Assembly (NCBI RefSeq): GCF_000284255.1
Contig: NC_017075.1
Coordinates: 4,154,001-4,218,000 of the forward strand
DNA: 64,000 nucleotides
Reading direction: 5' to 3'
DNA from: Rubrivivax gelatinosus IL144
GTDB lineage: Bacteria > Pseudomonadota > Gammaproteobacteria > Burkholderiales > Burkholderiaceae_C
Below are positions 4,681 to 28,780 of the stretch, in pieces. Each line of letters opens with the position of its first letter. Within the stretch, counting starts at the first letter, position 1. Both the position numbers and the translations under genes were made by a program. The notes beneath the pieces are model-generated. The model saw nothing but the letters and a program-made list of their open reading frames with translations. It searched no databases and was not told where the DNA came from.

Positions 4681-5340
4681 TCAGCCAGCACTCAGCCGTT
4701 CCGACCTGAGCTCGCGATACCCGAACTCCAGGTCGACCTGCACGACGATGTCGGCCCGCTCGCGGCGCGGAAGCACCCAGGCGCAGTAATCCCGCCACTC
4801 GCGCTCCACCCGGGCCGCCGCCTCGTGCGCCGACATGCCGCGCTTGCGCTGGTTGGCGCGCACACGCAGCTCGCGGGCCGTGGCCTCGTCGGCGTCGATG
4901 AAGACCTTCAAATGCGTATGCGGCGCGAGATCCGGATGAAGCGCATGGATGCCCTCGACGACGAGCACGTCTGCGGGCGAGACCGTGCTCGCCTCGGCGC
5001 TCTTCATGCCGGTCCTGTTGTCGTAACGGCGCACGCCGAACGCCTGGCGCGCGAGGAAACGAACGAGTGCGGCCCGCAGCGCCGCCATGTCGATCGACCG
5101 CAGGTCGTAGCCGCTGATGCCGATCGCGTCGCGTTCGGCGCGGTCGCGCATGAAGTCATCGGTGGAAATCGCGTCGGCGGCGAGGCCGAACTGCCGCAAC
5201 GCCGCCACGAGTTGCGCGGCCACCGTCGACTTGCCGGTGTCGGCCCAGCCGCAGAGCGCGATGACGAACGGCTCGTCGCGGCCGGGCATCGAGGCGTGGA
5301 CGCGGGCGGCCAGGGCTTCGGGGAGGTTCACATTCGGCAT
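4681..5340 (-). CDS. P-loop nucleoside/sugar kinase (uridine kinase-like)
   Basis: A 219-residue protein starting MPNVNLPEALAARVHAS (ATG at 5340; an in-frame ATG 27 bases upstream is less likely). The Walker A motif GWADTGKST is at about residues 33–41. DAISTDDFMRDRAERD gives the DxxDF segment typical of uridine kinase/phosphoribulokinase folds, VLVVEGIHALHPDL is the Walker B/E-G region, and RVEREWRDYCAWVLPRR is a C-terminal helix with the arginines expected of a lid. The substrate is probably a nucleoside, sugar or vitamin. It ends the backbone segment before the mobile island, whose first remnant begins 50 bases upstream of its start codon. Confidence 0.78.
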   Translation of the reverse strand: MPNVNLPEALAARVHASMPGRDEPFVIALCGWADTGKSTVAAQLVAALRQFGLAADAISTDDFMRDRAERDAIGISGYDLRSIDMAALRAALVRFLARQAFGVRRYDNRTGMKSAEASTVSPADVLVVEGIHALHPDLAPHTHLKVFIDADEATARELRVRANQRKRGMSAHEAAARVEREWRDYCAWVLPRRERADIVVQVDLEFGYRELRSERLSAG

Positions 5341-5390
5341 GAGAGTGCAGCAGAGCCGCAAATACAACCAGCCTTATGAAGGCTCACGCA

Positions 5391-5699
5391 CTGCGCACCA
5401 GCCAGTCGGCGCTGGGCACGTACTACCGGCGCTCGTGCGCCCGCATGGACAAGGCCAAAGCCGTCACGGCCGCCGCGCACAAGCTCGCCCGGCTGATCTA
5501 CAGCCTGCTGAGCAAGGGCCAGGAGTACACCGATCAAGCTCAGGCCTACTACGAGGAGCGATACCGCCAGCGCGTGCTGCACAACCTGCAGCGCAAGGCG
5601 CAGCGGCTCGGCATGTCGCTCGTACCGGTCACGCCTGACTCAGCCACCGTCTAGAAAACTTCGCCTGCATCAATCACTTGGGAGGATTTCTTGAGAGGC
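5391..5699 (+). mobile_element. IS110-family remnant 1 (C-terminal transposase part and 3' end)
   Basis: These 309 bases keep only the 3' end of an IS110-type element. The reading frame to the TAG at 5652–5654 encodes SQSALGTYYRRSCARMDKAK, then AVTAAAHKLARLIYSLLSKG and YYEERYRQRVLHNL, the usual C-terminus of IS110/IS116/IS902 transposases. The left edge at 5391 is an abrupt junction with the kinase upstream region. The same stretch recurs at 6437–6746 with about 95 % identity and one single-base indel. Copy 1 is open to the normal stop, whereas copy 2 has an earlier TAG. No catalytic DEDD domain is left, so it is inert. Confidence 0.85.
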
Positions 5700-5703
5700 C
5701 GCA

Positions 5704-6174
5704 CTATGCCCACGGGTGCGGTGCTGGTGGCCGCCAGTCTGAAAGGTAAAGCCGCAGCGTGGGGTTGTCCCACTCGTTGCGTTGGTTTCTCGGATCCATA
5801 TAGTCCTCGAACCCGCGGCGTTTGCAGAGCATTTCGCCTTCCTCCGAGGTGCACTCAACGTCTATGTACTTCGCTCCGGCATTGCGCAACGTCTCGATGG
5901 AGGCGAGAAGTAGCCTCGACCCGAGCCCTTGACCCCTGGCGCCTGGTTTGACTTCGACAATATGAACATCGCCGCTGTCTGTGAACATCTGGAAAATGGC
6001 AAAGCCGACGATCCGTCCCTCGGAAAAGGCGCATAGCCCTTCACCTCTTGCGAAGGACTTCGCGATCACGTTGCGATTGCAGTAGAAGCCCGTGCCGGAG
6101 TCTTCCTCTTCGGCCTTGAGCCATTCCAGGACATCGGGGAGATGGTCGGAGGTGGCGGGTTGAATCTCGATCAC
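5704..6174 (-). CDS. GNAT N-acetyltransferase (probable integron cassette gene)
   Basis: A 156-residue protein read from the GTG at 6174 (VIEIQPATSDHLPDVLEWLK). The acetyl-CoA-binding motif A of GNAT enzymes is clear in VEVKPGARGQGLGSRLLLAS (about residues 78–97), followed by the GAKYIDVECTSEEGEMLCKRRGFEDY motif B region. The acceptor is unknown. An upstream ATG at 6222 would extend the protein into the flanking IS fragment and was rejected. The stop lies 4 bases after the end of IS110 remnant 1. A core-like GTTTGGC (complement of 6195–6201, 6 of 7 matches to GTTRRRY) lies 20 bases before the start. G+C is clearly below the neighbouring backbone. Confidence 0.8.
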   Translation of the reverse strand: MIEIQPATSDHLPDVLEWLKAEEEDSGTGFYCNRNVIAKSFARGEGLCAFSEGRIVGFAIFQMFTDSGDVHIVEVKPGARGQGLGSRLLLASIETLRNAGAKYIDVECTSEEGEMLCKRRGFEDYMDPRNQRNEWDNPTLRLYLSDWRPPAPHPWA

Positions 6175-6194
6175 CAGGACAGCCCCCTTGTGCG

Positions 6195-6201
6195 GCCAAA
6201 C
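6195..6201 (-). other. Degenerate attC core before the GNAT cassette
   Basis: The minus strand reads GTTTGGC, differing from GTTRRRY at one position, 20 bases upstream of the GNAT start. Four bases further out (6206) an IS110 left end begins. That is the same 4-base offset as at 9889–9900, which supports reading it as a targeted attC core. Confidence 0.45.
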
Positions 6202-6205
6202 AAAT

Positions 6206-6318
6206 GAAAGGGACATCCCCATTGCGTCCCACCCACCCGAGGTTATTCCTCAGGCAAGGACGGCTGCCCGGCATGACGATGGGGTTGCGAAATCTCATCC
6301 TCCACCCGGCTGACGCTT
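6206..6318 (+). mobile_element. Left-end fragment of the intact IS110-type element
   Basis: These 113 bases match 9900–10012, the left end and leader of the complete IS110-type element, with only a few differences (both start GAAAGGGACATCCCC and end GGCTGACGC). No transposase start follows. At 6319 the sequence switches directly to the C-terminal part of a different IS110 transposase, so this is a hybrid produced by deletion or recombination between two elements. Confidence 0.85.
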
Positions 6319-6746
6319 CGCCTCCTGGATGGGGCTGTGCCCGGGCACCAAGATCACCGGCGGCAAGGTCATGAGCGGCAAGACCCGTCCCACGGCCAAC
6401 CGCGCCGCCCAGGCGCTGCGGCTGGCGGCGGCGGCGCTGCGCACCAGCCAGTCGGCGCTGGGCGCGTACTACCGGCGTTTGTGCGCCCGCATGGACAAGG
6501 CCAAAGCCGTCACGGCCGCCGCACACAAGCTCGCCCGGCTGATCTACAGCCTGCTGAGCAAGGGCCAGGAGTACACCGATCAAGGTCAGGCCTACTACGA
6601 GGAGCGATACCGCCAGCGTGTGCTGCATAACCTGCGGCGCAAGGCGTAGCGGCTCGGCATGTCGCTCGTTCCGGTCACGCCTGACCCACCCACCGCCTAG
6701 AAAACTCCGCCTGCATCAATGACTTGGGAGGAGTTTCTTGAGAGGC
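6319..6746 (+). mobile_element. IS110-family remnant 2 (C-terminal transposase part, premature stop)
   Basis: A longer copy of the remnant at 5391–5699. The frame encodes GLCPGTKITGGKVMSGKTRP, the conserved loop of the second IS110 transposase domain, and continues to the same RYRQRVLHNL end. A C-to-T change relative to copy 1 creates a TAG at 6647–6649, before the normal end. The last 310 bases (6437–6746) are a direct repeat of remnant 1. Its 3' end reads TTGAGAGGC at 6738–6746, where the next cassette ORF is entered. Confidence 0.85.
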
Positions 6747-7295
6747 GCCACTCGCAACACCTTGCCCTGCGTCACGTAGTCCCTGCAGCAGTGCCATGTT
6801 GAACGAGAGGAATGCCTTCGTCACTGACATCACTTCGTCTGGCTGGAGTTCCTTGAGAAGGTTGACCTGCATCCGCAGGTCCTTGCCATAGTGCCCGGCG
6901 ACCTGATTCCGGAACGTGGACCACTTCTTCAGTCGAGCAAGATCATGCTTCCACTGGGATCGCGCGGCCTTCACAGACGCTCGGTCAAACGGTATCCCTC
7001 TTCGTCCGGCAAGCGCAATCAGCCGCGGTATGAAGCTGGTGTTCATCAGGTCGTCGTACTCGTAGAGCCTGAGCACCAAGCCTTTCAGTGCAACTGACGC
7101 GGCAAAGCCAGTGGGTTTGTTCCTGGTGAAGTTCAGCATCTCTGCGCACACGTCGTACTGAAAGATGGTCGCCTGCAGCTTTAGGTCCAAGAACTCTCGT
7201 GCCACGTCCGATGGCGCCTGCTCATACTGACGCAAGGAGTCTTCCAAGTTCCTCGCAGCTTTCCGATGAACGGCGGAGAGGCTCGGTTGCTTCAT
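6675..7295 (-). CDS. Unknown cassette protein with IS-derived C-terminus
   Basis: A 206-residue, mostly helical protein starting MKQPSLSAVHRKAARNLEDS, with no signal peptide or clear membrane segment and no family I recognise. I chose the ATG at 7295 because it lies 6 bases after a GTTAGGC core (complement of 7302–7308), the usual spacing for integron cassettes. A longer reading to 7361 would run through that core into the IS. The last 24 codons (from about residue 183, in GVASGASQ) are read from the end of IS110 remnant 2, so the native C-terminus has been replaced. Low G+C and rarer codons fit the island. Confidence 0.65.
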   Translation of the reverse strand: MKQPSLSAVHRKAARNLEDSLRQYEQAPSDVAREFLDLKLQATIFQYDVCAEMLNFTRNKPTGFAASVALKGLVLRLYEYDDLMNTSFIPRLIALAGRRGIPFDRASVKAARSQWKHDLARLKKWSTFRNQVAGHYGKDLRMQVNLLKELQPDEVMSVTKAFLSFNMALLQGLRDAGQGVASGASQETPPKSLMQAEFSRRWVGQA

Positions 7296-7308
7296 GGTGG
7301 CGCCTAAC

Positions 7309-9170
7309 GAAGCTGTAGAAAAACCCCGCCGCGGCGGCAGCCGGTCTGCGCGGTGCGGCATGCCGCACCAGCGCCGTTGATCCGCCTTTTCATGCGCCCC
7401 CCTCGGCGTCCTGTGTTCGCCGCAGCCTATCGACGGGGCATGACGCTTGCAAGCTCTGCCGTCATCCTCCCGACCGTTAACGCGATAACCGATACCGCCC
7501 CGTCGACAACCAGCCGTGTTTCCTGCCGGTGGTGCTGGCCGAGCAGTTGCTGCCCGGCTCCTTCGAGTTCGCGCTCAATCATCTGGTCGACTCGGGTGCG
7601 GTGCCGCTGGACGCGTTCGACGCCTTCTATCGCAACGACGAGACCGGAGCGCCTGCGGTCTCGCCGGCCGTGCTGCTCAAGGTCGTGTTATTCCCGCGGC
7701 CCGGTCTCCAGCCGCGCCATCGCCTCGGCCTGCGAGCGCCACGTCACCTTCATCGCGCTGTGCGGTACCGACGCGCCGCACTTCACCACCATCGCGCGCT
7801 TCGTCTAGCGCCTGGCCGAGCCCATTGCCGAGGTCTTCCAGTGGGTGCTGCTGGTCTGCGACGCGCAGTGGCTCATCGGCCGGCAGATGTTTGCCATCGA
7901 CGGCGTCAAGCTGCCCGGGAACGCGAGCAAGCGCCACAGCGGCACGCGCTCGGAGCTGGCCCAGCGCGCAGCCAAGATGCAGGACGCAGCGCAGGCGATG
8001 CTGCGCCGCCATCAGGCCGCGGATGACGCCCCGGAGCCGACGCTGCCGGTGCGCGAGCAGCGTCACATCCAGAAGCTGGCGCACGAGGCCCAGCGCATCA
8101 CGCGCTTCCTGGCCGAGCACCGCCACGACAAGACCGGCGCACGCGGCGCCGTGCGCAAGAGCAACGTCACCGACAACGACTCGGCCAAGATGGCCACCGA
8201 CAAGGGTGTCATCCAGGGCTACTGCGGCGTGGCGACGGTGGACGCCGAGCATCAGGTCATCGTCGACGCCCAGGCCCACGGCACGGGCTCCGAGCAGGCG
8301 CTGCTGCTGCCGGCGGTGCGCGCCGCGCAGGCGCACATGAGCGCGGACACCGTCGTCACCGCCGACGCGGGCTACCACTCGGAGAGCAACCTGAAGGCGC
8401 TGGCCGAGATGGGCGTCGACGCTGTCATCGCCGACAACCAGCGCCGCCAGCGCGACCCGCGGCTGGCCGACCAGGGCAAGCACCGCACGGGGGTCGACCC
8501 GCTGCACGCAAGACCCGCAAGCCGGGCAAGACCGTGCTCTTCAGGCCCGAGGACTTCCGCCACGACGCGCTGCGCCGCTGCTGCACCTGCCCGGCGGGGC
8601 ACACGGCGCAAGGCGGCCACGAGGCGCAGCAGCGGGGCTATGTCTCGCTGAGCTACCGCTTCCAGGCCGCGCAGTGCGGGCCGTGTGCGCTGCGCGGCCA
8701 GTGCCTGAGGAAACCCGAGACGACCGCAGCGCGGCAGGTGGCGTTCTTCCAGGCCAACACCGGCAGCGCGCACGCGTACACCCAGCGCATGCGCGCGCTC
8801 ATCGACAGCGAGGCCGGGCGCGAACTGTACGACCGGCGCATGGGCACGGTAGAGCCGGTCTTCGCCAACCTGCGCCACAACAAGGGGCTGCGCCGCTTCA
8901 CGCTGCGCGGAGAGACCAAGGTCGACGCCCAGTTCAAGCTCTTCTGCCTGGTGCACAACGTCGAGAAGCTGGCCAAGGCGGAGTACGGGACGGGGTGAAG
9001 ACGCTGGGCGAAGCCCTTCTCAGGGCTCGCGGGCGGCGACAGCCGCGATAACAGGGCTCGGAGTCGATTTCGGCAGCTTGATCGGAGGAAACGGCTTTGC
9101 CAACAGAAACAGCGCCTGAAGAAGCGCCGTTTTGTGTTGGGGCTGCAAAACAGGGTTTTGCTACAGCTTC
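7309..9170 (+). mobile_element. IS1182-like insertion sequence, inactivated
   Basis: An element of about 1.86 kb bounded by inverted ends: GAAGCTGTAGAAAAACCC at the left and the complement of GAAGCTGTAGCAAAACCC at the right, 17 of 18 identical. It carries one broken transposase gene on the plus strand. Family call: the transposase has the IS1182-type pattern of an N-terminal LEQLLPGSFEF-like segment, a DDE core and a late Cys-rich zinc module. It lies inside an attC site. Confidence 0.8.
7529..8998 (+). pseudogene. IS1182-family DDE transposase, frameshifted
   Basis: The protein can only be assembled across frames. It starts at AEQLLPGSFEFALNHLVDSG in frame 2 and shifts near 7690–7705 to RGPVSSRAIASACERHVTFI. 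It meets an in-frame TAG at 7806–7808, continues through the DDE region with KSNVTDNDSAKM and TADAGYHSESNLKALAEMGV, and shifts again near 8490–8515. The last part, 8534–8998, has the CCTCPAGH and CGPCALRGQC metal-binding cysteines, then EPVFANLRHNKGLRRFTLRG. Two frameshifts and one stop make it non-functional. Confidence 0.85.
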
Positions 9171-9234
9171 AACGATTGAACTCAGCGGCAGCCGTAGCCG
9201 GTCCGCGGGAATGATGGGCTAGATCTTCGGCGCA

Positions 9235-9876
9235 CTACGAGAGGGCCGCGAACAGCTTGAAAAAACCTCCAGCAATGTTCGCAACAGACGACGCGTAGAG
9301 TAAACAAACCAACAGAATCGACAGCTCCAGGAAGGCAAACTGCGCAAACGACGTCACCTTTGGCTCCTTGAAGACTAGCAACTGCTTGAGTCCTTGCCGT
9401 GGGAGTTGATAGATGAGCTCCTCAAATTGAAGATTTCTAAAAACTCGGATGACGGCAAAGGGAACAGCCACAAGAAATAGCACAACAGAGAGAGCTTGAA
9501 GCAGTGAAGCTGATTTATCCAATCCCGGAACGACATTCTTGGAAAATACGCTTGCAGATGAAACCAGCGCAACCTGAAGAAAGAACGCTAGCCCGAGCAG
9601 CGTGACACCCCAGGACCCAAGAACGACTGCGATGCGCACACTGCGCTTCCGATAGACAGGTGGCAGCTTACTGTAAGACCGCTGAGACTCAATGAATATC
9701 AGGAGAAAGAAGGCCGTAACGACGGTTAACGCCCAATCGAAGTAGGCGACACCGGTTTTGGTAACAAAAAAAGCCCCGACTAAAGCCACTGCGCGGGACA
9801 GCACCTTCCATGAAAATCGCTTGTCTTCAGACAAGCTCGTCCAAATTGATTCTGTTAGGCCTAAGCATCTGCGCAT
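9235..9876 (-). CDS. Unknown multi-helix membrane protein (probable cassette gene)
   Basis: A 213-residue protein starting MRRCLGLTESIWTSLSEDKR. About five hydrophobic segments are visible: residues roughly 27–45, 47–62, 82–110, 123–145 and 185–208. Short charged loops (SQRSYSKLPPVYRKRS, RNLQFEELIYQLPRQGLK) lie between. No family is recognised. The start is 12 bases downstream of a GTTAGAT core (complement of 9889–9895), and the stop lies 15 bases before the left half of the split attC. Base composition is far more A/T-rich than the backbone. Confidence 0.68.
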   Translation of the reverse strand: MRRCLGLTESIWTSLSEDKRFSWKVLSRAVALVGAFFVTKTGVAYFDWALTVVTAFFLLIFIESQRSYSKLPPVYRKRSVRIAVVLGSWGVTLLGLAFFLQVALVSSASVFSKNVVPGLDKSASLLQALSVVLFLVAVPFAVIRVFRNLQFEELIYQLPRQGLKQLLVFKEPKVTSFAQFAFLELSILLVCLLYASSVANIAGGFFKLFAALS

Positions 9877-9888
9877 GTTGACTTGAAG

Positions 9889-9895
9889 ATCTAAC
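9889..9895 (-). other. attC right core, occupied by an IS110-type insertion
   Basis: The minus strand reads GTTAGAT, a full match to GTTRRRY, 12 bases before the ORF at 9235–9876. Four bases outside it (9900) the complete IS110-type element begins. The other half of the attC is probably 11163–11215: its GCGGCGCC and GGCGACCGC arms can pair, and CGTT pairs with the AACG of CTAACG. Confidence 0.6.
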
Positions 9896-9899
9896 GAAC

Positions 9900-11160
9900 G
9901 AAAGGGACATCCCCATAGCGTCCCACCCGCCCGAGGTTATCCCTCAGGCACAGACGGCCGCCCGGTACGACGATGGGGTTGCGAAATCTCATCCTCCACC
10001 CGGCTGACGCAAGGAGATGTCCATGACGATTCTGTTTCTCGGCATCGATCTGGCCAAGAACGTGTTTGCCCTGCACGGTGTCGACGAGCGCGGCAAACCT
10101 GCGCTGGTGCGCCCGGCCGTGCGTCGCGACCAGTTGCTCGAAGCGGTGGCCAAGTTGCCGCCGTGCACCATCGACATGAAAGCCTGCTCGGGCGCGCACC
10201 ACTGGGCGCGCCGCTTCCAGGAGTTCGGCCACACGGTGCGGCTGATGGCGCCCAAGTTCGTCGTGCCCGCCCGGATGAGCGGGCGCCGCGGCAAGAACGA
10301 CGCGGCCGACGCGGCCGCGATCTGCGAGGCGTTGCAGCGCCCAGCGATGCGCTTCGTGCCGGTCAAGTCAACGCAGGCGCAGTCGCGCCTGGCGGTGCAT
10401 ACGGCGCGCCAGGGCTGGGTGTGCGCCCGCACGGCGGTCATCAACCGCCTGCGCGGCGTGCTCAGCGAGTTCGGCATCGTGCTGCCGCTCAAAGCCGCCA
10501 CGGTGCGCAGCCGCGCCGGCGAGCAGCTCGACACCGTGCCCGGCTGGGTGCAGACCGTGTGCCGCGACCTGCTGGCCGAACTGCAGCGCCTGGACGAGCG
10601 CGTGGCCGCGTACGACGAGCACATCCGGCTGATGGCCCAGGCCGACGACCGCGCCCGCGCTCTCATGGTCATGCCCGGCATCGGCCCGACCACCGCCAGC
10701 GCGCTGCTGGCCAGCATCGGCTACGGCCACGACTTCGCCAACGGCCGCCAGCTCGCCGCCTGGATGGGCTTGGCACCCGACCAGTACAGCTCGGGCGGCA
10801 AGAACCGGCTCGGGCGCATCACCAAGGCCGGCGACGCCTACCTGCGCACGCTGTTCATCATGGGAGCGCGCGCCGTGCTGGCCGCCGCAGCCAACAAGCA
10901 CGACCGGCTGAGCCGCTGGGCCACCGCGCTGGCCGAGCGCCGCGGCTATTGGAAGGCCGTGGTCGCCATCGCCGCCAAGAACGTGCGCATGGCCTGGGCG
11001 ATGCTCGCCAAGGGCGAAGAGTTCAAGCCCATGGCCTGAACACAAGCCGCGCCGCCCAAGCCAACCGCCAACCTCATCGGAGAAAGGCGCCCTCGAATCC
11101 GTTTCTGCCACCGCGTGACGCCTGCGTTGATGGATCAAGGTTGGACCTGCGCGGGGAGTG
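9900..11160 (+). mobile_element. Complete IS110-family (IS1111-group) insertion sequence
   Basis: The left end is fixed by the repeat at 6206 (GAAAGGGACATCCCC). The right end is not fixed by a second copy and is placed near 11160 because attC-like sequence resumes there. The leader contains an RBS-like AAGGAG, then a single full-length transposase gene. The IS1111 group is known to include members that target integron attC sites, and the two left ends here sit 4 bases from an attC-like core. Confidence 0.75.
10023..11039 (+). CDS. IS110-family (IS1111 group) DEDD transposase
   Basis: A 338-residue protein. The start at 10023 has AAGGAG about 7 bases upstream; the ATG at 10017 would directly abut it. 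The N-terminal DEDD/RuvC-like domain begins ILFLGIDLAKNVFALHGVDE, giving the first acidic residue, and includes TIDMKACSGAHHWARRF (E/D region) and GKNDAADAAAICEAL (the D–D pair). The C-terminal transposase_20 domain has MPGIGPTTASALLASIGYG, a helix-hairpin-helix, then GRQLAAWMGLAPDQYSSGGK and the catalytic-serine-type SSGGKNRLGRITKAGD. It is intact and could be active. Its high G+C contrasts with the cassettes on either side. Confidence 0.92.
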   Translation: MTILFLGIDLAKNVFALHGVDERGKPALVRPAVRRDQLLEAVAKLPPCTIDMKACSGAHHWARRFQEFGHTVRLMAPKFVVPARMSGRRGKNDAADAAAICEALQRPAMRFVPVKSTQAQSRLAVHTARQGWVCARTAVINRLRGVLSEFGIVLPLKAATVRSRAGEQLDTVPGWVQTVCRDLLAELQRLDERVAAYDEHIRLMAQADDRARALMVMPGIGPTTASALLASIGYGHDFANGRQLAAWMGLAPDQYSSGGKNRLGRITKAGDAYLRTLFIMGARAVLAAAANKHDRLSRWATALAERRGYWKAVVAIAAKNVRMAWAMLAKGEEFKPMA

Positions 11161-11421
11161 CTCGTTTAACTCCAGGCGGCGCCAGTGATGGCGACCGCGG
11201 CTAACGAATGGCCCTTGCAGGCCGCGCCGGGCCAGTAGCCCGGCCCCTCGTGTGGTGCAGGCCGGCCACCGGCCGCCCTGCGTCCGAACTCGGCCCCCGC
11301 GCGAATCTTTCATCAGGGCCCGCGGCATCGAACGCTGCATCAAAGGCCGGTTGTAGTTGCGCAGTCCGCACCTTGGTTCTTTTGCCGTCAGGTGGCGCAA
11401 TGGCAGCACACCGTCGAAGTA

Positions 11422-11452
11422 CCTTGATGAATCGGTGATCGATTCATCAAGG
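11422..11452. repeat. Perfect 13-bp inverted repeat
   Basis: CCTTGATGAATCG, five bases (GTGAT), then CGATTCATCAAGG. There is no T-run on either side, so it is not a Rho-independent terminator. It falls in the degraded coding segment between two attC-like sites. Confidence 0.75.
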
Positions 11453-11484
11453 ATTCGTTTTGCTTGAAAGACGGGGATGCCCTT

Positions 11485-11597
11485 GTAGCCGTGGTTAACC
11501 GGCACCGGAGCACGAAGCACGGAGGGCACCAACATAAGTCATGAGAATGCCGAAGGCATGGCTTATGTTGGCGTTCGCGTTTAACCGCCAGTTAGGC
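11485..11597 (-). other. attC-like site downstream of the 11655–12596 ORF
   Basis: On the minus strand a left core GCCTAAC (complement of 11591–11597) follows the ORF stop by about 58 bases. A strong stem comes next: CCAACATAAG pairs with CTTATGTTGG, with CATG/CATG inside (11529–11571). A right core-like GTTAACC (6 of 7 if GGTTAAC is read) lies near 11493. The total is about 110 bases, within the known attC length range. The left core and the stem are clear; the right core is weak. Confidence 0.5.
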
Positions 11598-11654
11598 CAG
11601 GCTGCCGACTTTCAGTGGTGTGCATCGCTAGTTCCACTCCTCCCGCTTGCCAAT

Positions 11655-12596
11655 TCATTTGTGAAGGCGGTTACGGGTTTCGAAGACGTAAGCCATTTCG
11701 TGGCCTGACTGCCAATGCTTCATATCATGGCGCTTCTCAGCGACGTTTAGCGCCACCTTGCCCAACTCAATTGCGGCGGCGCTAAGGAGTCCAACCTCTA
11801 TGCCGCCAAAAAAGCCGGCTAGAACACCAGCGCCAGCAGAAGCTTGAAGTGACTTGGCATCTAGCAGCATGCCAAGAGAGGAGGTGAGCGTAGTGAAGCC
11901 AAATTTTTTGGTGGTTAGCTCGTAGTCTTCGACTCGACGAAGCAGATCGTCCTCGATGAAGGTGGCGGGTTTGCCTTGAAAGTCCTCGTGCAGAAAGAGG
12001 CGCAGACGAGCCAACTTCCTCCGCGATGTGTCGTCCTTGCGAACGTCTAGGATTTGACGCCAGTCAGCAGAGGCTGCATCGATCAACTGCAGGTTTGAGA
12101 GCATCAGACTTGGATCGGCTTCATTCCCGCCTACAGCGGTAGGTAGGGCGACGGAGAAGTTCTGTACGCCAAGCGCATTGGCGTATTCGCTAAGTGCTTG
12201 GCGTATTGGTGCTCCGCCATTAATGTGGGCGTCCGATAGGTACGCAGTTAGTAGCTTCTGGTGCTCTTCTTGCGGGTCATGCTGCTTTTCGCCACGCGGG
12301 TCCGGCGCCCACAATTGCGCATATGGAGATACCTTCTTTGCGAACTCAACCCACTTGTCTGCAGTGAATTCCATGACCCGAGTGGCATGGCTATAGGTAA
12401 CCGTATTTCCCTCGACTCCATCTATTAGGTGCGAAAGCGCAGCTGACGGAATAGACTCGGGGTAGCCGACGAGAATGTCGCCGATATCCGGGTCACCCTG
12501 CATCCGCCCCATATTGAGTGGCAGGACTTGGTCAAAGTACAACGCTGCTTCCTTGAAGTTCTGAAAGCAAAGAATTGCGCTGCTGCGGCGATACAT
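11655..12596 (-). CDS. Unknown cassette protein
   Basis: A 313-residue protein starting MYRRSSAILCFQNFKEAALY. The ATG lies 20 bases after the GTTAGGC core of the attC at 12616–12685, as in integron cassettes. The N-terminus has a FDQVLPLN motif, the middle is helical and charged (EEHQKLLTAYLSDAH, RKLARLRLFLHEDFQG), and the C-terminal third has a Gly/Ala-rich hydrophobic stretch (ASAGAGVLAGFFGGIEVGLL, about residues 253–272) before a basic tail. That stretch could be one membrane helix or a buried helix pair. No family is recognised. Base composition is island-like. Confidence 0.68.
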   Translation of the reverse strand: MYRRSSAILCFQNFKEAALYFDQVLPLNMGRMQGDPDIGDILVGYPESIPSAALSHLIDGVEGNTVTYSHATRVMEFTADKWVEFAKKVSPYAQLWAPDPRGEKQHDPQEEHQKLLTAYLSDAHINGGAPIRQALSEYANALGVQNFSVALPTAVGGNEADPSLMLSNLQLIDAASADWRQILDVRKDDTSRRKLARLRLFLHEDFQGKPATFIEDDLLRRVEDYELTTKKFGFTTLTSSLGMLLDAKSLQASAGAGVLAGFFGGIEVGLLSAAAIELGKVALNVAEKRHDMKHWQSGHEMAYVFETRNRLHK

Positions 12597-12615
12597 AATT
12601 TATTTTGGTGTAGAG

Positions 12616-12685
12616 GCCTAACGTTCAAATTAACAGGCGCTGCGCGGCTTCATCGCGCAGCGTCCTGTTGACTGCCGGGTTGGGC
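12616..12685 (-). other. Complete integron attC recombination site
   Basis: On the minus strand: left core GCCCAAC (12685–12679), stem arm AACAGGACGCTGCGCG, seven-base loop, arm CGCGCAGCGCCTGTT, and right core GTTAGGC (12622–12616), 70 bases in total. The arms pair over 15 bases with a single unpaired A in the left arm, the extrahelical base typical of attC. It overlaps the last codons of the ORF at 12650–13516 and precedes the next ORF by 20 bases. Confidence 0.85.
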
Positions 12686-13516
12686 GCGACGGGCCTCCGC
12701 TAGCGCAGCTTTAACATCGCTTGCATATAGCTCGAAGCCAGTCTTCCCATCGAATAGCATGGCGCACATGTCTTGAAACCGCGTGTCTGGTGCTGTTGTG
12801 GCCACTGGCACAAACTTCATTGCCGTTTCACCGAACTTGAACAGACGCGCAGGGAACACCTTCATGAAGTTCGGAGTATTCGGGCTTGCCTTGCTTAACT
12901 GCCGCGCCTTAGGTATCCCCATGAATGCAAGGCAAGTCCGGACCTCTGGGGACACGACATCATCAAGGGTTCCGGTTGTGAGCGTTTCAGCGTAGCTGCA
13001 AATGACTTCGGGAAGGTATCTTTCTTCACCTTCCGAGTACGGTTGAAGCCTAATCGCGACATCAACGATGAAGTAAGGTGGAGCCACCACCCAGGCATGT
13101 GCCGCAGTGAATTGTCCAGCGTCGACAGACCAGAAAAACTTAGGTGCGATTTTGGCTTCTCTTGGAAACTCGATGGTCAAAGAACCTTTCACAACAAAGT
13201 TCCAGATGCCTTCCATTTCAAGTGCGCGAGATATCATCCCTGAAATGTCGACACATGCACCAAGACGCCCATTTGCCTTTAGGTGTTCATGAAATACACG
13301 AGCAACGATAGGCACGGTCTGCCTGACGTGTTCATCATAGGCAGGAGTGCGCTGACGATCGTGAACGTATCTGGCGTAGTTGTTTAGGTAGCACGGGTTA
13401 GCTCTTTCGACTTCCATGAAATTCGGATGATCGTAAAAGCCCGGAGAATCAAGAGGGACTCGGCGAGCCAGGAAGTCACGTTCGATCTCAGCAAATGGTG
13501 CGTCGAAGTTTGTCAT
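12650..13516 (-). CDS. Cassette protein with a possible Cys-His-Asp catalytic triad
   Basis: A 288-residue protein starting MTNFDAPFAEIERDFLARR. I chose the ATG at 13516; an ATG at 13534 would overlap the core at 13529–13535. Cys88 (GRLGACVDISGMISRALEME) stands at the start of a helix, His140 is in FTAAHAWVV and Asp152 in YFIVDVAIR. That order and spacing match transglutaminase-like and related papain-fold proteins, in which Cys is the nucleophile. No signal peptide is visible. The rest has no recognised family. The C-terminal codons lie inside the attC. It would be the first cassette from the array's right end. Confidence 0.68.
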   Translation of the reverse strand: MTNFDAPFAEIERDFLARRVPLDSPGFYDHPNFMEVERANPCYLNNYARYVHDRQRTPAYDEHVRQTVPIVARVFHEHLKANGRLGACVDISGMISRALEMEGIWNFVVKGSLTIEFPREAKIAPKFFWSVDAGQFTAAHAWVVAPPYFIVDVAIRLQPYSEGEERYLPEVICSYAETLTTGTLDDVVSPEVRTCLAFMGIPKARQLSKASPNTPNFMKVFPARLFKFGETAMKFVPVATTAPDTRFQDMCAMLFDGKTGFELYASDVKAALAEARRAQPGSQQDAAR

Positions 13517-13528
13517 GGTAGTAGTTAA

Positions 13529-13580
13529 GCCCAACCACTGTTATATGCAGCACCCAGACGCCGCATAACAAATCCAACGC
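13529..13580 (-). other. Cassette core with an attI-like neighbourhood
   Basis: The minus strand reads GTTGGGC (complement of 13529–13535), a full GTTRRRY match, 12 bases before the first cassette start. Upstream on the same strand lie ATAACAGTG, a GTTATGC 34 bases away and a GTTGGAT a further 10 bases out. These same-direction cores without the paired stem of an attC resemble the layout of attI sites. The GTTAT/ATAAC arms could instead be a truncated attC. Confidence 0.4.
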
Positions 13581-14057
13581 TCGCGTAACAGAAACCCTGG
13601 ACGACAACTCAAGCCCTTGTCGCGCTTAAGATTTCCGTCGCCGAGCAATCTTCTCCACAGGCGTAAAAAGACGCCGAAAACGGCGTCGGCCGCGCACGAT
13701 TCTGAGCCGCCCGATCATGGCCGCCAAGCCCACCGCCCGTCTTCGGGGGGAGGCCGCCAACCCGAGCGAACAAACCCCGCCCCGGCCTGCCGCGGACGCC
13801 GGGTGGCCGGTGGAGTGAAGTAAAGGAGGAGGCCCGGCGCAGCCGGGCCGGGGGACATGAACGGAACCGGCCACCCGGTGGCCGCGGCATGCGCAGGCGG
13901 TGGCGCACTCGGCCAGCCGAGCGCAGCCTGGCTCAAGCCATCAAGAGAATGGAGCGGCGATTAACGACGACGTCGGCGCCGTCTCAGCAGTGGTGCCAGA
14001 AGCGGTGCGAGCAGCGGCAGCCGTTGCCGCCTACGCCGCCGCCAGCCCGCCCCAAGC
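13581..14057. other. Non-coding boundary between island and backbone
   Basis: No coding sequence and no trace of an integron integrase on either strand. It holds the terminator at 13670–13687, a GGCCCGGC/GCCGGGCC hairpin (13831–13849) and a GGCCACC/GGTGGCC palindrome near 13870. Composition returns to the high G+C of the backbone. Confidence 0.6.
13670..13687 (-). terminator. Rho-independent terminator, probably of the YgiQ gene
   Basis: On the minus strand GACGCCG, TTTT loop, CGGCGTC, followed at once by TTTTT. It is 370 bases downstream of the YgiQ-like stop and points toward the cassettes, so it would block backbone read-through into the array. Confidence 0.75.
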
Positions 14058-16496
<2,439 letters not shown>

Positions 16497-16678
16497 GGCG
16501 TGCTCTCGGGTGGGGACAACGGGGCGAACCGGCGATTGTCGCCGCGGCGGGGTCGCCCGGGTGGCGGCAGGGCTGCCGCGCGGCGGCGGGGGCCGCGGTC
16601 CGTGGCATCCGTCGCAGGACGCAATGGCGATTTGCGCGAATGCTCAAGTCGCGGCGCGGCGCCGTCGATAGGCCGGCG

Positions 16679-28606: not shown

Positions 28607-28615
28607 CCGCCTCCT

Positions 28616-28724
28616 GCGCGACTGGCGATGAGGGGCGGCACGACTGCCGGCCCCGAGGTGGATCGACCACCGGGAAGCGCAGGCCGGCCACCCGGCCGGC
28701 GTCCGCCGTTCGCCTGGGCAGCCC
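28616..28724 (+). ncRNA. ZTP (pfl) riboswitch upstream of glyA
   Basis: The leader carries the conserved pfl-motif blocks in order: GCGACTGGCGATGAGG, GGTGGATCGACCACCGGGAAGCG and the 3' half CCGTTCGCCTGGGCAGCC, joined by a GC-rich variable hairpin. The motif binds ZMP/ZTP and switches on one-carbon and purine genes when folate is short; glyA is one of its usual targets. The start codon is 57 bases past its end, and the CGCTCCGCCGCGGGGCG hairpin in between may be the expression platform. Confidence 0.85.
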
Positions 28725-28780
28725 TCGACGACGCTCCGCCGCGGGGCGCTCGAAGGCCCTTCACTCCGAAGAGGACTGCC

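Follow-up and report, generated by a model that had tools for sequence, protein, structure and literature searches.

The window analysed here, a 64,000-nt stretch (C1:4154001-4218000) of the 5,043,253-bp single-contig genome of the purple bacterium Rubrivivax gelatinosus IL144 (R. gelatinosus clade), carries downstream of a ygiQ-family gene an array of integron cassettes that has no integrase gene beside it. Comparison with three relatives, R. gelatinosus DSM 1709, R. benzoatilyticus JA2 and R. gelatinosus IM 151 (four Rubrivivax genomes with that of the window), makes it likely that the array is one satellite of a distributed chromosomal integron, in which one integrase, IntI, acts in trans on several attI sites. 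A wider proposal, for which the case is evenly poised, is that these attI sites are parts of mobile, integrase-free, hairpin-bounded modules that have multiplied over the chromosome, one integrase in trans running a network of cassette-exchanging platforms. The data suggest that one enzyme serves many scattered gene-capture sites, and we infer its action in trans on the satellites.

The attI module and the single integrase gene

The last ~190 bp before the first core of the window array are homologous to the stretch between intI and the first cassette of the intI-linked array. A profile built from the three ygiQ-side attI copies alone recovers the intI-side copy of each of the four genomes (54.7-69.9 bits), the next match among the loci compared scoring 9.5 bits. 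Copies are 79-93% identical inside the ygiQ-side group, 87-91% inside the intI-side group and 59-65% between the two, where conservation is best in two blocks, one close to the intI start and the other spanning the final ~60 bp. DNA homology of the window with JA2 and DSM 1709 spans ygiQ and the region downstream of it and ends at 13533-13540, at the core. This homology and the boundary at the core point to an attI at the head of the array, as in a complete integron; an intI next to the array, another mark of such an integron, is absent. The preliminary description of this DNA, made from its letters alone, missed that the first core, at 13535, belongs to a predicted attI and not to an attC.

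The predicted attI is the last part of a module of ~365 bp, which consists of hairpin A on the left, a terminator-like stem and the attI, and holds no intI coding sequence; some modules lack the middle of the leader. A scan for terminator-like stems found two sites where 1.2 were expected by chance, which is weak evidence when taken alone; the stem is conserved among module copies.

A search of the replicon for intI, as had been advised, found one place above the curated cut-off for integron integrases (C1:1237513-1238457, 447.9 bits against 265), four weaker integrase matches all falling below it. This gene, at 1.24 Mb, lies 2.9 Mb from the window (4.15-4.22 Mb). Residues 38-351 of its product can be aligned with the solved integron integrase 2A3V, and the residues that we take to be catalytic (Arg, His-x-x-Arg, His and Tyr) are present in that alignment. 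The gene sits between universal stress protein/serC and its own cassettes; DSM 1709 and IM 151 have it at the same position, and in JA2 it adjoins the stress protein gene. Matches to it at or below 1e-60 occur in 81 of 120 genomes, 56 of 71 within the genus. Five relatives (G107, G002, G019, G023 and G044) have two or three integron integrase matches each. A tblastn search with the genome's own IntI over window positions 5000-16500 gave nothing convincing, and the satellite loci searched showed no intI coding remnant. R. gelatinosus is counted among the integron carriers in the excerpt available of one source (PMC3108266).

Dispersed modules and possible exchange of their cassettes

Used as a DNA query against 81 genomes of the genus (at most 10 candidates per genome scored), the attI segment was found at six places in the window genome, five each in DSM 1709 and JA2 and three in IM 151; four other genomes gave only matches of 26-41 nt (E 0.0016-0.0097). 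A motif scan of 84,980 species genomes, from which the window genome was possibly left out, returned six stretches, all from Rubrivivax. With the leader as query more module copies were found. Nineteen satellite modules, all away from the intI locus, extend as far as the core position (five each in the window genome, DSM 1709 and JA2, four in IM 151), and 17 of them have GTT there. Truncated modules also exist, including those at 4894890 and 2300098 of the window genome. These two places (~4.89 and 2.30 Mb; L135 9932-11596 and L136 1557-3215) share 1.66 kb at 97.7% identity, with a truncated module beside each.

Such recurrence bears on a plainer explanation, close to that of the preliminary description: an ordinary cluster of attC sites lacking integron-integrases (CALIN), left when a second complete integron lost its intI by deletion or when a single copying event brought part of the intI locus here. 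The homology of the attI segment to the DNA that separates the intI start from the first cassette would agree with this, as does the current CALIN paradigm of integrase loss or translocation (PMC11389934, in excerpt). However, the hairpin-terminator-attI layout recurs at many loci and in several species, so that independent losses of intI would each have had to spare just this left part, and an intI coding remnant was not found at the loci searched. We regard an ordinary CALIN as quite improbable, and loss of intI at the window locus was rejected as the principal explanation because the module recurs without intI. The earlier statement that the cluster has lost, or is separated from, its integrase thus stands in so far as no integrase is adjacent and one intI lies elsewhere in the genome; loss as such fits poorly with an array headed by a widely recurring, intI-free attI module.

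Hairpin A is repeated at many places in the four genomes and belongs to a palindrome family; an inverted partner, hairpin B, is found on the far side of nine of the 22 arrays, and the pair gives a hint of a mobile unit. Hairpins A and B also alternate in clusters that lack attI and resemble bacterial interspersed mosaic elements; these were seen in the window genome (C1 ~4346280-4347345; L169 520-1640) and in IM 151 (C89; L179/L183). At the 655k locus of DSM 1709 the hairpin occurs without an attI. Mobilisation of the modules as repetitive extragenic palindromes by their associated tyrosine transposases (REP/RAYT) was rejected, since PF01797 (Y1_Tnp) has no match in the window genome and is present in one of the four genomes only (JA2). 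No clean empty site was found: the ygiQ side of IM 151 shows no attI match within 8 kb and no clean junction either. In one unrelated congener (G040) no further long copy of the sequence upstream of intI was found, the other matches in the four genomes searched being 33-38 nt long; this query may not include the attI core.

In a tree of attI sequences the 3968k site of the window genome groups with the 655k site of JA2 (94/88), and a site on IM 151 contig 8 with the intI-linked sites (100/99). Grouping across loci fits copying between modules. The contig 8 satellite attI (L193 10381-10558) is joined to the intI-linked attI of its genome by a branch of 0.0075, as if recently copied or converted.

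The places of the modules are shared between genomes and their contents are not. Both flanks are common to the window genome and DSM 1709 at the 2037k locus, where the right flank is unmatched in JA2 and matched in part in IM 151; to the window genome and JA2 (IM 151 by the left flank) at 655k; to the window genome, JA2 and IM 151 (DSM 1709 by the left flank) at 316k; and to the window genome, DSM 1709 and JA2 at 3968k. At all four the content between the flanks differs. In none of 13 orthologous satellite pairs are the 400 nt that follow the core shared (E 1e-5), although the flanks are ~87-97% identical; of the intI arrays, one of six pairs shares sequence behind the core. The window locus itself behaves in the same way: two close relatives retain the attI next to ygiQ yet hold other cassettes behind it, and the same order of open reading frames (ORFs) without the cores, which would have spoken against a cassette array, was not seen in relatives.

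Cassettes are also shared between satellites and the intI array. In DSM 1709 the first ygiQ-side satellite cassette and the second cassette of the intI array are identical at 300 of 321 nt, starting exactly from the GTTATGC core. The same cassette fills the first two positions of that genome's 316k array and occurs in the intI array of IM 151 (89-95%). The 2037k array of DSM 1709 and the 316k array of JA2 have a 451-nt cassette piece in common, at 91.6% identity.

The attC sites were located with a covariance model made from 19 attC sites of ten integron loci of other genomes, cut to their two half-sites; satellite attC and any attC of the window genome were kept out of the training set, and a separate simple attC finder served solely to choose the training sites. 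The model is home-made, with rough E-values, and differs from that of IntegronFinder. It lists four attC in the intI array of the window genome at 32.9-53.1 bits; a fifth, outside that listing, came from the simple finder, and part of it scored 24.9 bits. Of 25 matches of at least 15 bits, 21 lie in cassette intervals and in cassette orientation; from 17.5 bits upwards all 19 do so. The remaining four comprise a single orthologous site that was seen three times (17.0 bits) and an antisense match (15.3 bits). This count covers 23 sources and 22 intervals, which make up 12.6% of the two-strand length. It omits matches below 15 bits, the reverse-strand reading of a counted attC (L041), the intI arrays (L006, L042, L053 and L094), the non-satellite loci L098 (15.5 bits) and L137 (16.3 bits, chosen for its own match) and the duplicate places L150, L161, L165 and L170. 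L136 was first chosen for its attC match, and the far ends of the IM 151 C34 and C8 intervals were set by hand. Since the 25 matches are partly dependent (orthologous or shared cassettes), the binomial value of 9e-16 for their placement is a rough guide. At least one match of 15 bits or more is present in 13 of the 22 arrays, and satellites of the three relatives hold at least two clear attC.

These placements bear on the idea that the module is only a dispersed palindromic repeat, its attI likeness and the genes behind it having another cause, or that the cassettes entered at non-classical attG-type sites. The hairpin part is indeed dispersed and occurs without attI as well, but the attI part is homologous to a true attI and conserved up to the core, where foreign DNA with oriented attC begins, and attG sites are described in the excerpts of PMC12444791 as broadly spread and not as a repeated module. 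We therefore find this explanation highly improbable.

Several observations weigh against a distributed integron. The divergence between the two attI groups means that IntI may use satellite attI poorly, and two satellite cores lack GTT, one reading GTC and one ATT. No promoter was found in the module by a consensus scan of 13450-14060 on both strands, such scans being weak at this G+C. The attI tree departs from the loci in places, with four of its 20 inner branches well supported. Nine of the 22 arrays have no attC match of at least 15 bits, including four of the seven in the window genome (655k, 316k, 3968k and 4894k). Shared cassettes could have been acquired separately from outside, and recombination by IntI is presumed from sequence comparison.

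Some of these points would suit fossil satellites, served by IntI before or around the species split and now inert, changing only by decay, insertion of insertion sequences (IS) and deletion. The cores without GTT, the arrays without an attC match, the truncated modules, the DSM 1709 locus that keeps the hairpin without attI and the attC sites split by IS in the window all speak for it. Against it stand the lack of shared sequence behind the core in all 13 orthologous pairs, despite their similar flanks, and the cassette that is 93% identical between a satellite and the intI array within one genome. The two findings together indicate turnover after the species split, and we think inert satellites unlikely.

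Under a distributed integron, IntI from the single gene would recombine circular cassettes into satellite attI cores in trans, while the terminator-like stem would shield the cassettes by stopping transcription from the upstream gene. The modules would have multiplied by some route perhaps tied to the hairpin family. Two insertion sequences would then have broken up the window array by entering attC beside the right core.

Relation to known integron systems

Integrons have been described with typically one attI beside intI, and CALIN have been ascribed to integrase loss or translocation. Cassettes are reportedly also inserted at attG sites, as Loot et al. are said to have described in 2024. 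Such cassettes, like those of the window, are distant from the intI locus; the window differs in its entry point, which is homologous to the resident attI and part of a ~365-bp repeat. The window resembles a sedentary chromosomal integron in that an attI is followed by a chromosomal cassette array and that, in a relative, cassettes are common to such an array and the intI-linked one. It differs in having no intI in cis, an intI-linked array 2.9 Mb away and several attI modules per intI.

CALIN are already known as a class (PMC9024848, PMC12444791, PMC11389934) and can be mobilised in trans by an IntI (PMC12444791, PMC11389934), according to excerpts of these papers. They share with the window array oriented, attC-bearing cassettes without adjacent intI, and for a CALIN IntegronFinder 2.0 requires at least two attC sites by default. 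The window array differs in being headed by a chromosomally repeated attI module; the CALIN definition is silent on attI, and IntegronFinder seeks none outside class 1 (PMC9024848, in excerpt). Closest in arrangement are the conserved-locus CALIN of Xanthomonas, likewise integrase-less clusters at fixed places away from intI in several species, for which the excerpted text of PMC12444791 reports no attI and leaves the conserved positions unexplained. Excerpts of another study indicate that attI-type sites can take part in unusual cassettes (PMC12901181). No report of dispersed attI modules sharing one intI was found in the excerpts of the open-access literature searched, subscription journals lying mostly outside it.

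If the distributed integron is real, CALIN at conserved places, for example in Xanthomonas, gain a testable cause, namely paralogues of the resident attI at their heads. A single integrase event could put a cassette into different neighbourhoods, and annotation tools that seek only intI and attC would overlook a common landmark.

The window array, its insertion sequences and neighbouring genes

Read along the minus strand, the region runs from ygiQ through the attI module, cassette 1, attC1, cassette 2, attC2 (interrupted by an IS110-family element), cassette 3, attC3 (interrupted by a broken IS1182-family element) and cassette 4 to IS110-type remnants, cassette 5 (GNAT), an IS remnant and the kinase gene (Table 1).

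Table 1. Features of the cassette array and its borders (window positions)
Feature	Positions	Strand	Basis or remark
Flanking gene (left), YgiQ-family radical SAM protein	14058-16496	-	NCBIfam TIGR03904, 846.6 bits (cut-off 462.35)
Hairpin A, left end of attI module, dispersed palindrome family	13785-13892	-	102-nt fold, -64.8 kcal/mol, no shuffle control
Terminator-like stem-loop GACGCC-TTTT-GGCGTC-TTTTT	13670-13687	-	in module, cassette direction
Predicted attI segment	13529-13718	-	homologous to intI-linked attI, which the ygiQ-side profile finds at 54.7 bits, E 3.6e-15
Predicted attI core GTTGGGC	13529-13535	-	homology with relatives ends here
Cassette 1 ORF, 288 aa	12650-13516	-	no Pfam, NCBIfam or PADLOC match
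attC1, complete	12616-12685	-	covariance model, 41.0 bits, E 2.5e-8 over 106 kb
Cassette 2 ORF, 313 aa	11655-12596	-	no known family
attC2, long left part	11489-11597	-	IS junctions; right core on far side of IS
IS110-family element (transposase 10017-11039)	9896-11493 (approximate)	+	NF033542, 334.9 bits; inserted in attC2 just before right core
attC2 right core GTTAGAT	9889-9895	-	core reading
Cassette 3 ORF, 213 aa	9235-9876	-	hydrophobic protein, no known family
attC3, left part	9175-9225	-	17.9 bits for 9170-9221, and junctions; right core past IS
Broken IS1182-family element	7309-9174 (approximate)	+	inserted at attC3 right core; junctions
attC3 right core GTTAGGC	7302-7308	-	core reading
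Cassette 4 ORF, 206 aa	6675-7295	-	end runs into IS remnant
Fused remnants of two IS110-type elements	6202-6749	+	sequence comparison, junctions
Core GTTTGGC behind IS110 right end	6195-6201	-	IS junction and core reading
Cassette 5 ORF, GNAT acetyltransferase, start uncertain	5704-6222	-	Pfam PF00583, 43.7 bits (cut-off 20.7)
IS110-type remnant, distal array end	5388-5702	+	sequence comparison
Flanking gene (right), uridine kinase/PRK-like	4681-5343	-	Pfam PF00485, 68.5 bits

The five minus-strand ORFs of atypical composition noted earlier are confirmed, and their DNA is lower in G+C: of the nine 1-kb blocks in 5001-14000, seven have values of 0.53-0.65 and the two IS-filled ones 0.71, against 0.67-0.77 in the other 55 blocks of the window. 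The view that they are integron cassettes in one orientation is borne out. Placement of the ORFs after GTTRRRY cores holds for four starts, which shortly follow GTTGGGC (13535-13529), GTTAGGC (12622-12616, the right core of the complete attC1), GTTAGAT (9895-9889) and GTTAGGC (7308-7302). For the fifth the core is GTTTGGC, outside that pattern, and the listed ORF of cassette 5 begins upstream of this core, so its start is uncertain.

The preliminary description had asked for at least three significant attC in the same orientation. The home-made model falls short of this number, with two in the window, both on the minus strand and ~3.4 kb apart: the strong attC1 (41.0 bits) and the weak site at 9170-9221 (17.9 bits; E 0.026 in a search of 106 kb and 0.0022 in an unfiltered one of 9 kb), the best match in the rest of the window reaching 9.8 bits. 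Being split, attC2 has no significant match to the model; its left ~100 nt resemble pieces before an IS110 copy in JA2 (83%) and in IM 151 (78%). The array had also been called degraded. This applies to its distal part, where attC2 and attC3 are split by IS, whereas no damage is apparent in the attI, cassette 1 or attC1.

The DNA between the ORFs, previously described as holding attC-like structures, is in fact mostly insertion sequence (IS110-family, broken IS1182-family and IS110-type remnants). The cores at 9895 and 7308 are thus the right ends of attC sites, severed by insertion sequences; that at 6201 is placed likewise behind an IS110 right end. Each of the five left junctions of IS110 elements that could be read follows an attC-like left half, six of seven right junctions run on into GTT, and all IS110 pieces compared are oriented opposite to the cassettes. 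The window IS110-family element, a 98.2% identical copy of which lies in the intI array, enters at one end of attC in a single orientation, as is characteristic of IS1111-attC elements. It is classed at family level (NF033542), and a long non-coding stretch past the transposase is in keeping with the IS1111 type. Like the IS1111-attC elements ISKpn4 and ISPst6 described in excerpts of PMC11187229, it sits at the attC end next to the right core in fixed orientation. Insertion sequences that target attC are already known (PMC11187229); the likeness concerns this element alone and not the array. The right core of attC seems to be the entry point of the IS1182-family element as well: the window copy lies between ATC-GTT and GTTAGGC, a copy in DSM 1709 ends directly before GTTAGGT, and the four copies compared all run opposite to the cassettes. 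Since these insertions lie next to the right core, the distal window cassettes would be fixed in place.

PADLOC gave no match for the five cassette proteins, and none of the window's five cassettes recurs in the other arrays compared. The cassette 2 protein has no plasmid match. Relatives of the cassette 1 protein were found by tblastn in 32 plasmid records (best 39.6%; Klebsiella 20, Vibrio 5), with no attC near the three plasmid relatives inspected; one Klebsiella relative sits after an IS110 transposase gene. Its Cys88, His140 and Asp152 are invariant in a four-row alignment and presumably recall a transglutaminase-like triad; a single-sequence structure model was unusable (mean predicted local distance difference test score 36).

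The YgiQ-family gene is 77-98% identical within the genus, with matches in 61 of 72 genomes, and the uridine kinase/PRK-like gene adjoins the distal end of the array in DSM 1709 too (87% identity). In the Rfam search nothing in 13450-14060 came near gathering level; the sole hit at that level in the window, far from the array, is a ZMP/ZTP riboswitch at 28608-28726 on the plus strand (45.8 bits, gathering score 39).

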